Of a stretch of 64,000 nt of DNA, positions 37,903-42,238 are shown piece after piece. Under the pieces are notes generated by a model, which worked only from the letters and a program-made list of their open reading frames with translations, did not search any database and was not told the origin of the DNA. This DNA is from Candidatus Dormiibacterota bacterium (GTDB taxonomy: Bacteria; Chloroflexota; Dormibacteria; Aeolococcales; Aeolococcaceae), in contig PLZA01000031.1 of the NCBI GenBank assembly GCA_003153505.1, positions 156,732 through 220,731 on the forward strand, read 5' to 3'. How positions within the stretch are numbered: position 1 is the first letter of the stretch; every line of letters begins with the position of its first letter. A program made the translations under genes and the position numbers.

Positions 37903-38661
37903 TCAGCTGACAGCGTCAAGGACGTCGTCCGGTATCTCGGCGTTGGCGTAGACCTGCTGGACGTCGTCGTGCTCCTCGAGGCCGTCGAGCAGGCGTAGCA
38001 CCTGACGCGCCTGTGGTACGTCGAGCGGCACCGAGGTGGTCGGGTTCATGGTCACCTCGGCCGAGTCGACCGAGTAATTGCGCTCCTCGAGCGTGCGCCG
38101 GACCTCTTCGAACCGTGATGGAGCGACGGTGACGACCACCTCGTCCCCGTCGACGCTGACGTCTCCGTCCGCGCCGACGTCAACGGCGTCGAGCAGCTCG
38201 AGGGCGAGCTCCTCGGGATCGCGCTTCCCTGCTTCGACGCTGATCACGCCCTGCTGATTGAACATCCAGGCGACGCTGTTCGCCTCCCCGAGCGCGCCGC
38301 CGGAGCGAGTGAAGGCGTTGCGGATTCCGGCTACCGTGCGGTTGCGGTTGTCGGTGAGGGTGTCGACCATCACGGCGACACCATGCGGCCCGTAGCCCTC
38401 GTAGCGGACCTCCTCGAGCTGAACGCCATCCTTGCCGCCGGCTCCACGCTGGATTGCCCGCTCGATGTTCTCGGCGGGCATGTTCACCTCGCGTGCCTTC
38501 TGCATAGCAAGGCGCAACCGGAAGTTGCCCTCGACATCGGGGCCACCCTCGCGCGCGGCAACGGTCAGCTCGCGCGTGACCTTGGTGAACACCTGGCCGC
38601 GGCGAGCGTCGACGATTGCTTTTTTGTGCTTGATTCCAGCCCACTTGCTGTGACCGGACAT
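37903..38661 (-). CDS. yebC: YebC/PmpR family regulator
   Basis: MSGHSKWAGIKHKKAIVDARRGQVFTKVTRELTVAAREGG. Confidence 0.97.
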   Translation of the reverse strand: MSGHSKWAGIKHKKAIVDARRGQVFTKVTRELTVAAREGGPDVEGNFRLRLAMQKAREVNMPAENIERAIQRGAGGKDGVQLEEVRYEGYGPHGVAVMVDTLTDNRNRTVAGIRNAFTRSGGALGEANSVAWMFNQQGVISVEAGKRDPEELALELLDAVDVGADGDVSVDGDEVVVTVAPSRFEEVRRTLEERNYSVDSAEVTMNPTTSVPLDVPQARQVLRLLDGLEEHDDVQQVYANAEIPDDVLDAVS

Positions 38662-38730: not shown

Positions 38731-38759
38731 TTGCCGTCAGTGGGAAACAGGTCTATGGT
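38731..38759 (+). promoter_or_regulatory. Candidate promoter TTGCCG-N17-TATGGT for an orphan plus-strand transcript
   Basis: -35 at 38731-38736, -10 at 38754-38759, 17-bp spacer; divergent from the yebC promoter. Confidence 0.45.
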
Positions 38760-38991
38760 TATGGGTAGCATCGGCAATCAGACGGAGGTAGCCATTCCAA
38801 TGTTGCGAGCCGTCTGGCAGCGTTTCCGGCACGGCCGAGCGGAGGGTTGAGGCCCGGCTGACGGGCCCCTGACCGCACGAACAGAGCGCCCCCGTCGAGG
38901 TCGCCGGGCAATCGGCGTCCCCCGGGATGGCCCCGGAACATGGGCAAGTGCGCCTTGTGCGGACCGGGAGTTTCGTACCGGGCGTTTCTCC

Positions 38992-39015
38992 GAAAAGGGC
39001 ACCGGTTTCGGTGCC
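38992..39015 (-). terminator. Intrinsic terminator for the upstream infC...pheT-mpg transcript
   Basis: Minus strand GGCACCG-AAAC-CGGTGCC followed by CTTTTCG. Confidence 0.55.
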
Positions 39016-39073
39016 ACCAAGAGCCCGGGAATTTCTACCGGGCTTGCCGTATCAAGAAACGGTGCATTCACGA

Positions 39074-39102
39074 GGGGCCGGCTCAGTCCGGCCCCTTTTC
39101 TT
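39074..39102 (+). terminator. Strong intrinsic terminator of the plus-strand transcript
   Basis: GGGGCCGG-CTCAGT-CCGGCCCC-TTTTCTT. Confidence 0.8.
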
Positions 39103-39137: not shown

Positions 39138-39773
39138 TCATCTCGGAGCCTTGCCGGGTGCGCGTGGACCGGGACGCGACACCGCCGGATCGCCGAGCCA
39201 GCTGAAGCGCAGCAGCCGGTCGGCCGCCTGCCGCAGCCCGATGCGCGTTCCGATGCCAATGTCCGGGGTCTCGACGCGAGGGTTGATGTGCACGCGCGCC
39301 CCCGGGTCGATGAGATCGATGCCATCCTCGGTGCGCGAGATCCCCAGGCCACGACAGAGGTTTCCGGGTCCTCGCAGGAGCGCGGTCACTGCGACGCCGG
39401 TGCCGCGTCGAGCCGCCACCGCCGCCACACCCTCCTCCACCGCGGCGGCTCGCAGGAGCACCGCACCCGCGACACCGTCGGCATCGGTGACCAGATTGGC
39501 GCAGTGGTGCATGCCGTAGGTGAAGTACACGTACAGGTGCGCCGCCGGGCCGAACATCACCCGCGATCGGGGCGTCGGACCGCGGTAGGCGTGTGATGCC
39601 GGGTCGCCGGTTCCCAGATACGCCTCAGTCTCGACGATCCGCGCCACCACCGCGCTCGACGTCCCGGCGTCGACGACGAGCCGGCAGCCGATCAGATCGC
39701 GCGCGACGTCCGCCGTCGGGCGCGAGAACCACTCGCGGGAGAGCTCGTCTACCGGCGGATCTCCGCGTCGCAC
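39138..39773 (-). CDS. mpg: DNA-3-methyladenine glycosylase (AAG/MPG type)
   Basis: ARDLIGCRLVVDAG..RIVETEAYLGTGDPASHAYRGPTPRSRVMFGPAAHLYVYFTYGMHHCANLV. GTG start tentative. Confidence 0.92.
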   Translation of the reverse strand: MRRGDPPVDELSREWFSRPTADVARDLIGCRLVVDAGTSSAVVARIVETEAYLGTGDPASHAYRGPTPRSRVMFGPAAHLYVYFTYGMHHCANLVTDADGVAGAVLLRAAAVEEGVAAVAARRGTGVAVTALLRGPGNLCRGLGISRTEDGIDLIDPGARVHINPRVETPDIGIGTRIGLRQAADRLLRFSWLGDPAVSRPGPRAPGKAPR

Positions 39774-42238
39774 CGCTGCGCGAGCGCGGTTGCCACCGCG
39801 TCCTGGGCGCGCTGCGCCTCCTCGCCGGTGAGAGTCCGGTCGGTTGCTCGGAAGGTGAGCCGGAACGTCCACCCCTTGCGCCCAGCGCCCAGGCTGCCGC
39901 CCCGGTACTCGTCGTACAGCTCGGCACGCTCGAGCAGCGGCTCCTGCGCAGCGCGAATTGCGTCGATGGCGTCCCCGGCGCGCCGGTCGGCGGCCACAGT
40001 CACCGCGAGGTCCTGGACGATGGCCGGGAAGCGAGGCGGCTGCGCATAGCGGAGTGGCCGTGGTGGCGACGGTGCGATGGCATCGATGCGCAATTCCCCC
40101 ACCGCGACGCGCCCTTTGACCTCGAATGCGGCAGTGGATTCGAACGAGAGCTCCCCGAGGAGGCCCACCGACTGGCCTGCGAACTCGAGCGCCGAGCTCC
40201 GCCCGGCGTGCAGGCCGGCTTCAGCGGACGGCTCGCTGCGCAGCGGCACTCCGGAGAGGTCGTCGCTGATTCGCTGGAAGACGGACTGAACCTGCCGGAG
40301 GGCGGCGGCCGCGTCATCGGCGGTGCCGCTGGACACGTGCACCGCGAGGCTGAGCAACAGCGGCTCGAGTGGCAACGCCGGGAGGTCGGCGTCGGCACCG
40401 TCCGGGGTTGCCCCGGGCACCGGTCCCGTACGCTCGCCTTCCCAGAATGCCTTGCCGAGCTCGAAGAGCATCACATCGGCGGTGCCGCGATTCACATTGG
40501 CAGCGAGTGCGGCACAGAGCCGGGGAAGCTGCGACGTGCGCATCACACTCCACTCGTCGCTGAGCGGATTGCGCAGTGGGATGGGCGTGCGCCCGCGCCC
40601 GAGCCCCGGCAGCAGCGTGGAGTCGAGCGGGCCGACAAATGAGAAGGTGATTGCCTCGTCGAAGCCGGCTCCGACGCACACGTCACGGACGGCGTCCTCG
40701 ACTGGTGGTGGCGCGGCGGTGGTCGTGACCTCGACGCGGCGTCCGGGGAGCGTGCTCGGAACACGCGAGTAGCCGATCATCCTGCCCACCTCCTCGACGA
40801 GGTCCTCGGGCAGGGACACGTCCCGCCGGAAGTACGGTGGCACGACCGTGAGGGCGGCGGCGTCCTGCTCCACGGCGAACCCGAGCCGCGCGAGGGTGGT
40901 CGCGATCTCGGTTGCGTCGATCGGGATGCCGAGCAGGTCGCCGGTGACTCGCGCGGTGAGGGCGATCGGTCCCAGCTCGGGGAGCGGACGCGGCCACTGG
41001 TCGATCGCACCCGCAAGCACATGGCCGCTCGAGAGCTCGGCGATCAGCGCAGCAGCTCGATCGAGCGCGACCATCGGGAGCCGGTCGCTCAGGCCTTTCT
41101 CGAACAGGGTCGACGCATCGGTGCGGAGCCCGAGCCGCTTCGATGTCGCGCGGATGGTCGGGCCGTCCCAGGTTGCGGCCTCCAGCAGCACCGTTCTGGT
41201 CGCGTCGGTCACGGCCGTTGAGCTGCCGCCGATGACCCCGGCGATGCTGGCGGGCGTGCCGCCGGCACACACCACCAGATCCTCAGAGGAGAGCTCGCGG
41301 TCGGTGCCGAGCAGATCGACGACGTGTTCGCCAACCACCGCTCGGCGGACGACCACCTCCGCGGTCCTGCCGCCACCGGCCTCCACGAAGCGATCCAGGT
41401 CGAAGGCGTGGAGGGGCTGGCCGAGCTCGTGGAGCACGAAGTTGGTCACGTCGACCACGTTGTTGATCGGGCGCAGCCCGACCGCACGCAGCCGCTGGTG
41501 GAGCCACCCCGGGGACGGCCCGACTTGGACCCCTTCGATCACACGAGCGACGAAGCGTGGGCAGCCGGCGGGATCCTCGATCCGGACCTGCGCGCGGAGT
41601 TCGGCCGACGTCGCCGACTGGAACTCCTCGGGCACGGACGCCGGCGGCTCGTTGAGTCCCTCGCCGAGTGCGGCCGCGATCTCACGCGCGATGCCGACGT
41701 GACAGAGGCAGTCGGGGCGGTTGGTGGTGATGTCGAGATCGAGAATCGTATCCAGGGTCAGAATCTCGCGGAGCCCCTGTCCCGGCTTTCCCTCATCGAG
41801 GATCAGGATGCCGTCGGCGTCATCCCCCACCCCGAGCTCGATCGCCGAGCAGAGCATGCCCGGGGATTTCTGGCCGCGGATAGTCTTCACGCCAAGACGC
41901 TCGTCCATGGCCGGCGGGCGAGTGCCAGGGGGCGCGTAGGGAACGAGATCACCGGCCTTGACGTTCGGCGCCCCGGTCAGGACCCGCACCGTCCCAGGGA
42001 TGGCGCTGAATGCCGCAAGGGAAGCCGGAACCTCGCCACCGAGATCGAGATCGGCAAACTGGAGATGCGACGATCCCGGAACCGGCCCGACCGACTCGAT
42101 TCGCGCAACCACCAATCCCTCGCCCCCCAGGTCAACCGCTCCAACCTCGGTGCCGGTGTCCACCAGGGCCCGGACGATCGTCGCCACCGGTGCGTCGAGG
42201 GTCGCGTAGTCGCGCAGCCAGCGCAGAGAGAACTTCAC
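39749..42238 (-). CDS. pheT: Phenylalanyl-tRNA synthetase beta subunit
   Basis: [49 protein letters not shown]-terminal FDX-ACB domain. Confidence 0.97.
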   Translation of the reverse strand: MKFSLRWLRDYATLDAPVATIVRALVDTGTEVGAVDLGGEGLVVARIESVGPVPGSSHLQFADLDLGGEVPASLAAFSAIPGTVRVLTGAPNVKAGDLVPYAPPGTRPPAMDERLGVKTIRGQKSPGMLCSAIELGVGDDADGILILDEGKPGQGLREILTLDTILDLDITTNRPDCLCHVGIAREIAAALGEGLNEPPASVPEEFQSATSAELRAQVRIEDPAGCPRFVARVIEGVQVGPSPGWLHQRLRAVGLRPINNVVDVTNFVLHELGQPLHAFDLDRFVEAGGGRTAEVVVRRAVVGEHVVDLLGTDRELSSEDLVVCAGGTPASIAGVIGGSSTAVTDATRTVLLEAATWDGPTIRATSKRLGLRTDASTLFEKGLSDRLPMVALDRAAALIAELSSGHVLAGAIDQWPRPLPELGPIALTARVTGDLLGIPIDATEIATTLARLGFAVEQDAAALTVVPPYFRRDVSLPEDLVEEVGRMIGYSRVPSTLPGRRVEVTTTAAPPPVEDAVRDVCVGAGFDEAITFSFVGPLDSTLLPGLGRGRTPIPLRNPLSDEWSVMRTSQLPRLCAALAANVNRGTADVMLFELGKAFWEGERTGPVPGATPDGADADLPALPLEPLLLSLAVHVSSGTADDAAAALRQVQSVFQRISDDLSGVPLRSEPSAEAGLHAGRSSALEFAGQSVGLLGELSFESTAAFEVKGRVAVGELRIDAIAPSPPRPLRYAQPPRFPAIVQDLAVTVAADRRAGDAIDAIRAAQEPLLERAELYDEYRGGSLGAGRKGWTFRLTFRATDRTLTGEEAQRAQDAVATALAQRCDAEIRR

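Follow-up and report, generated by a model that had tools for sequence, protein, structure and literature searches.

Introduction

VcdRP of Vibrio cholerae (PMC8672173), SR1/SR1P of Bacillus (PMC7430163) and SgrS (PMC4021124) are dual-function small RNAs: in each, a stand-alone transcript, running from a promoter to an intrinsic terminator, combines structured RNA with a short ORF. The same parts occur in the unit described here, which is located in a window of 64,000 nt (the whole stretch of DNA that was analysed) from a member of Candidatus Dormibacterota, and which joins promoter and terminator to an ORF selected as protein and to conserved structure outside this ORF. Its peptide is shorter, with 14-16 residues versus 29 in VcdP (PMC8672173). 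Unlike in the known dual-function small RNAs, the peptide is encoded directly 5' of a stem at a fixed distance, and no sequence or Rfam relation to them was seen. Literature searches returned such general precedents only, and no report on small RNAs of the Dormibacterota group.

The attenuator small RNA rnTrpL accompanies the peptide peTrpL. In Sinorhizobium meliloti, this very short leader-type peptide reportedly works in trans within ribonucleoprotein complexes (PMC7298713), and it stems from a transcription attenuator, whereas our unit is followed by no biosynthetic gene; a very short peptide is common to both, which is a likeness by description with no relation seen. Arrest-peptide leaders, e.g. 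TnaC, have a short ORF with a conserved C-terminal part and a downstream RNA structure where a stalled ribosome would touch it (PMC8429421), and our unit appears similar in both respects, but it has no regulated operon downstream. Lastly, tmRNA resembles the unit in being a structured RNA of 300-400 nt that contains a short ORF, but the unit has no tRNA-like part.

Features of the unit

The unit is located in a 476-nt gap between two minus-strand genes, and the following features were assigned in and around it.

37903-38661, minus strand: yebC, flanking gene, divergent; context, outside the RNA unit
38731-38759, plus strand: promoter, -35 TTGCCG (38731-38736), N17, -10 TATGGT (38754-38759); from sequence, conserved placement and consensus
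38766-39102, plus strand: putative transcript of about 335 nt; from promoter and terminator, fold stability and homologues
38779-38816, plus strand: stem CAGACGG (38779-38785) / CCGTCTG (38810-38816); found in the window and several genera, missing from others
38784-38789, plus strand: Shine-Dalgarno GGAGGT; GGAG(G) kept in the compared copies except the N-terminally extended G023
38800-38850, plus strand: ORF of 16 codons, MLRAVWQRFRHGRAEG and stop; from pN/pS, with start and stop kept in the copies
38851-38867, plus strand: hairpin P1 directly after the stop, GGCCCG (38851-38856) / CGGGCC (38862-38867); fixed spacing
38998-39015, plus strand: hairpin GGCACCG-GTTT-CGGTGCC; counterpart with altered stem sequence in other genera of the family
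39022-39044, plus strand: hairpin PA, AGCCCGG-GAATTTCTA-CCGGGCT; covariation in the f2 set, present in almost all copies
39046-39063, plus strand: hairpin PB, GCCGT-loop-ACGGT; covariation in the f2 set
39074-39102, plus strand: intrinsic terminator, stem 39074-39081/39088-39095 and U tract 39096-39102; covariation
39138-39872, minus strand: mpg, 3-methyladenine DNA glycosylase, flanking gene, convergent; context, outside the RNA unit

The transcript start was placed from the -10 box and the end was set at the U tract, and from the sequence signals we infer plus-strand transcription of the unit (38731-39102). The promoter of the window scores under the strict threshold of the promoter scan. 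In homologues, TTGACA or TTGACG with TAnnnT stands at the equivalent place, 24-31 nt upstream of the Shine-Dalgarno, and at least 9 of 12 promoter matches were found in 26 of the 47 copies versus 0.7% of shuffles. The terminator reads GGGGCCGG-CTCAGT-CCGGCCCC at 39074-39095, then TTTTCTT; such terminators are expected by chance about 0.9 times per 2 kb, and its position is conserved in nearly all homologues. Moreover, the unit with its promoter and terminator is convergent to mpg in both families in which it occurs, and most genomes have no sense gene downstream; in G016, a tyrS-like gene follows on the same strand. The original prediction of a stand-alone plus-strand unit was thus borne out, including the size of the gap between yebC and mpg, the promoter and its spacing, the terminator, and all four inverted repeats at their predicted positions.

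Distribution and synteny

Homologues were recovered by DNA similarity, pattern search and covariance model and, so far as they are named, come from metagenome-assembled genomes. By DNA similarity, the unit was found in each of the six relatives within the genus and also in other genera; pattern and covariance-model searches covered 110 genomes of the class. Within a single order of Candidatus Dormibacterota, 45 of 50 genomes have the unit (28/32 in the family of the window, 17/18 in the sister family), and its absence from the other five may be due to assembly gaps or divergence. A covariance model from one family finds the other, many matches having E-values between 1e-9 and 1e-15. Most genomes of either family share the arrangement yebC (upstream, divergent), unit, mpg (downstream, convergent) and then pheT, with extra sequence between yebC and the unit in several genomes. 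PheT of the sister family has 36-46% identity to that of the window, while the peptide is nearly constant there.

Searches of the other two families of the class, which included the yebC-pheT neighbourhood of 14 genomes, did not recover the unit, nor did those of the sampled genomes of the other classes of the phylum, and the corresponding gene neighbourhood of f3 and f4 genomes has no such peptide motif. Weak model matches in f3/f4 (E 1e-3 and weaker) were rejected, as the six inspected had no ORF or unit and several lay in coding frames; weak matches outside the order as a whole (E 1e-4 to 1e-2) were isolated fragments. Pattern matches in Streptomyces, Haladaptatus, Treponema and others (none encodes the peptide) and a peptide match in G029:C86 (within a larger coding frame resembling a transposase) were taken as chance, and of 71 pattern matches in viral contigs none encodes the peptide.

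The unit is usually single-copy. In genus g11, the first copy adjoins a tyrS-like gene and a second, diverged copy is present at another locus (L196:1858-2108, L187:1290-1534, L145:2357-2607), with RNA and peptide, e.g. MMRTIWQRLRRGRAET and stop. These second copies lie beside the gene of a conserved, roughly 210-aa protein (MHEKLDVLAERGFVVLRD...); on their other side, where the contig covers it, a convergent gene resembling FAD-dependent oxidoreductases follows.

The small ORF and its peptide

The peptide is basic, nearly invariant and 14-16 residues long across the family, with the consensus M(x)R[TSGA]V[WFY]xx[LFY]RxxRAE(G/R) followed by the stop. Using twelve representatives found by DNA similarity, a non-codon pattern or the RNA model, we obtained a pN/pS of 0.433 in frame versus 1.25 and 1.62 in the other frames, and a value as low was reached by 0/2000 column shuffles (mean 1.06, minimum 0.48). 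An earlier run gave 0.35, on a set that was biased because it had partly been gathered with an amino-acid-shaped pattern. The start codon is immediately 5' of the conserved first residue (mostly arginine) in 45 of 47 copies, with the start one codon further up in one of the other two and an N-terminal extension in the other (G023), and the stop falls within one codon after RAE in 45 of 47; its position is therefore not strictly fixed, being shifted downstream by five codons in G007 and G008. In G011, the RNA model matched only the 3' structured part, and upstream of it lie a promoter, a Shine-Dalgarno and MMRTVFELYRATRADR with its stop, which on the sequence is the strongest single case for coding.

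By these comparisons, the ORF at 38800 is a real coding sequence under purifying selection. The original prediction had treated it as a mere alternative reading within a purely non-coding structured RNA in which the ORF would be coincidental. Covariation and fold stability (see below) agree with a purely non-coding RNA, but they are met by codon-level selection, by start and stop codons that stay in frame through indels, and by replacement of TGG with TAC/TTC, which leaves the residue aromatic. Codon-level conservation of a small ORF, which the prediction itself had named as evidence against a non-coding RNA, is what was found at 38800, and we consider a coincidental ORF extremely improbable; the structured RNA and its lack of a known family stand, the purely non-coding part does not. 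A further ORF at 38940 (MGKCALCG...), also given as an alternative reading, is indeed not coding: it is unconserved, its ATG occurs only in the genome of the window and one related genome, and its frame is disrupted by indels inside the genus.

In G023, the extended ORF (L146:210-330) has about 35 codons and starts with MSTVW, which echoes the conserved RTVW motif that is also retained near its C-terminus. An amphipathic helix for the peptide was rejected, the hydrophobic moment being no higher than in shuffles.

RNA structure

The plus-strand RNA 38765-39102 folds at -165 kcal/mol (z = -4.34, equal stability in 0/100 shuffles), whereas the minus strand of the gap is unremarkable (z = -1.05). 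The region after the ORF has a mean z of -3.9 over 19 genus representatives, and of -2.8 without the terminator. Sequences of the window's own genus are too alike for testing most pairs; covariation was scored on 12 diverse copies of family f2 with 35 pairs in the stems after the ORF. Paired cells amounted to 90.7%, 14 pairs were changed on both sides (shuffled mean 8.1), and there were 36 compensatory cells versus 12.2 in shuffles and a covariation score of 0.277 versus 0.140, none of these values being reached in 500 shuffles. When the partner was slid by 1-3 columns pairing fell to 32-51%, a control that favours the structure because the structure was drawn from the same sequences. The 14 covarying pairs are distributed over the terminator (6), PA (3), PB (3) and P2 (2). 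The f2 counterpart P1/P2 is paired in most sequences with compensatory changes in P2, and P1 (GCCC/GGGC) is without covariation support because it hardly varies. In f1 copies, GCCGT/ACGGT of PB is replaced by GCCGA/TCGGC. The compensatory changes in homologues thus uphold the structured RNA that had been predicted, except for the CAGACGG/CCGTCTG stem, which is present in the window but not generally conserved. It could, if formed, occlude the Shine-Dalgarno, which overlaps it; its loss from several genera makes it no more than a local feature, and we rejected it as an essential one, which it probably is not.

The main rival to a dual-function RNA is a plain small-protein gene, in which the peptide would be the sole product and the hairpins a stabilising 3' UTR with a terminator. 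The ORF is the most conserved stretch, its start, Shine-Dalgarno and stop are kept, and the middle region of the RNA ranges from nearly absent to about 100 nt, being variable or missing in G007, G008, G014 and G015, all of which suit such a gene; protection or termination of an mRNA could be all that the RNA structure serves. However, the hairpins between stop and terminator keep compensatory changes and have similar loop sequences across families, and the spacing from the ORF to P1 is rigid. Compensated hairpins and rigid spacing together exceed the needs of a generic 3' UTR, and we regard a plain protein gene as rather unlikely.

The PA loop (39029-39037 in the window, and in homologues) is pyrimidine-rich with a recurring UUAUCC / AAUUUC pattern, the loops of other genera being of the UUAUCC type. 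In a test for pairing as a pseudoknot, this loop gave p = 0.051 with the Shine-Dalgarno region and p = 0.31-0.36 with the ORF and its end.

Joint between the ORF and P1

The GCCC arm of the stem starts 6-7 nt after the conserved E codon in all 46 full copies (one compared copy has D for E), and exactly 7 nt after GAG in the window. This spacing holds even in G007 and G008, whose stop lies five codons further on; therefore it is the RAE codons, not the stop, whose distance to the stem is kept. While RAE is decoded, the ribosome footprint puts the mRNA entrance at about the P1 stem. The same arm has a local partner (38862-38867) and, as GCCCGG at 38852-38857, a long-range one (CCGGGC, 38978-38983), so alternative folds are possible, between which the arm may switch.

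Another alternative is a ribosome-arrest leader, in which a signal-dependent stall near the C-terminus of the peptide would switch P1 and thereby either stabilise the RNA or let transcription continue past the terminator, antisense into mpg. Conservation is concentrated at the C-terminal end of the ORF, an aromatic residue lies about 10 residues before the end, the last 13-14 residues are unchanged in the extended ORF of G023, and the constant distance to P1 and its alternative partners would fit as well. Nevertheless, most genomes have no sense gene downstream, the terminator is strong, and the stop codon shifts in G007 and G008. An arrest leader is, in our view, very unlikely.

Comparison with known RNA families

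No match to the unit was found in Rfam 15 at the gathering score, nor any tRNA or tmRNA with ARAGORN, consistent with the original prediction, in which no RNase P, tmRNA, SRP or tRNA had been recognised. Weak matches at relaxed Rfam thresholds, e.g. SAM-IV at 15 bits, lie far below the cut-off and were taken as chance. We also rejected tmRNA (RF00023), since the unit has no tRNA-like domain or Rfam match and a normal tmRNA is present elsewhere in the genome (G000:C37), 6S RNA (RF00013), with no match in the window or in G000, and a transcription attenuator with leader peptide, as there is no regulated sense gene downstream and mpg is convergent in both families.

In f2 genomes, matches resembling 6S RNA were observed at G035:C69:13646-13758, G032:C46:5783-5895 and G033:C47:212733-212845, with 40-43.5 bits just below the Rfam cut-off of 46.4; these are possibly an unannotated 6S RNA of Dormibacterota.

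Discussion

Comparison of the copies supports the promoter, the coding ORF, the RNA structure, the terminator and their conservation, and we presume that the unit is probably a stand-alone gene for a dual-function RNA, belonging to a single order of Dormibacterota, with translation coupled to folding. A sigma-70-type promoter would start a transcript of roughly 200-340 nt, which would serve both as mRNA of the basic peptide of 14-16 residues and as a structured RNA with 2-3 small hairpins and the terminator. The P1 stem would have to be opened by any ribosome that completes translation, or stalls, at the conserved C-terminal codons; translation and RNA folding would therefore be coupled, and the translated or untranslated state would set the presentation of the downstream hairpins. 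The peptide, the 3' hairpins or both may be the working products, with another RNA or a protein as their target in trans; translation of the ORF, its coupling to folding and the action in trans are what we infer from the sequences. Further, the unit might be a riboregulator that acts in trans and is switched by its nascent peptide, in which a stall on the RAE end would open the adjacent stem and expose or hide the 3' hairpin loops, a scheme that we hold to be distinctly unlikely.

The unit represents a previously undescribed RNA family, not in Rfam, with a built-in, nearly invariant peptide. Nearly all genomes of this order of uncultured soil bacteria have kept it, although the neighbouring PheT retains only 36-46% identity between the two families, and this order-wide retention points to a core function. 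Because the joint between the end of the ORF and the stem is rigid, the coupling of translation and RNA folding is directly testable, and, if the riboregulator scheme were true, one small RNA would signal the state of translation to other genes.
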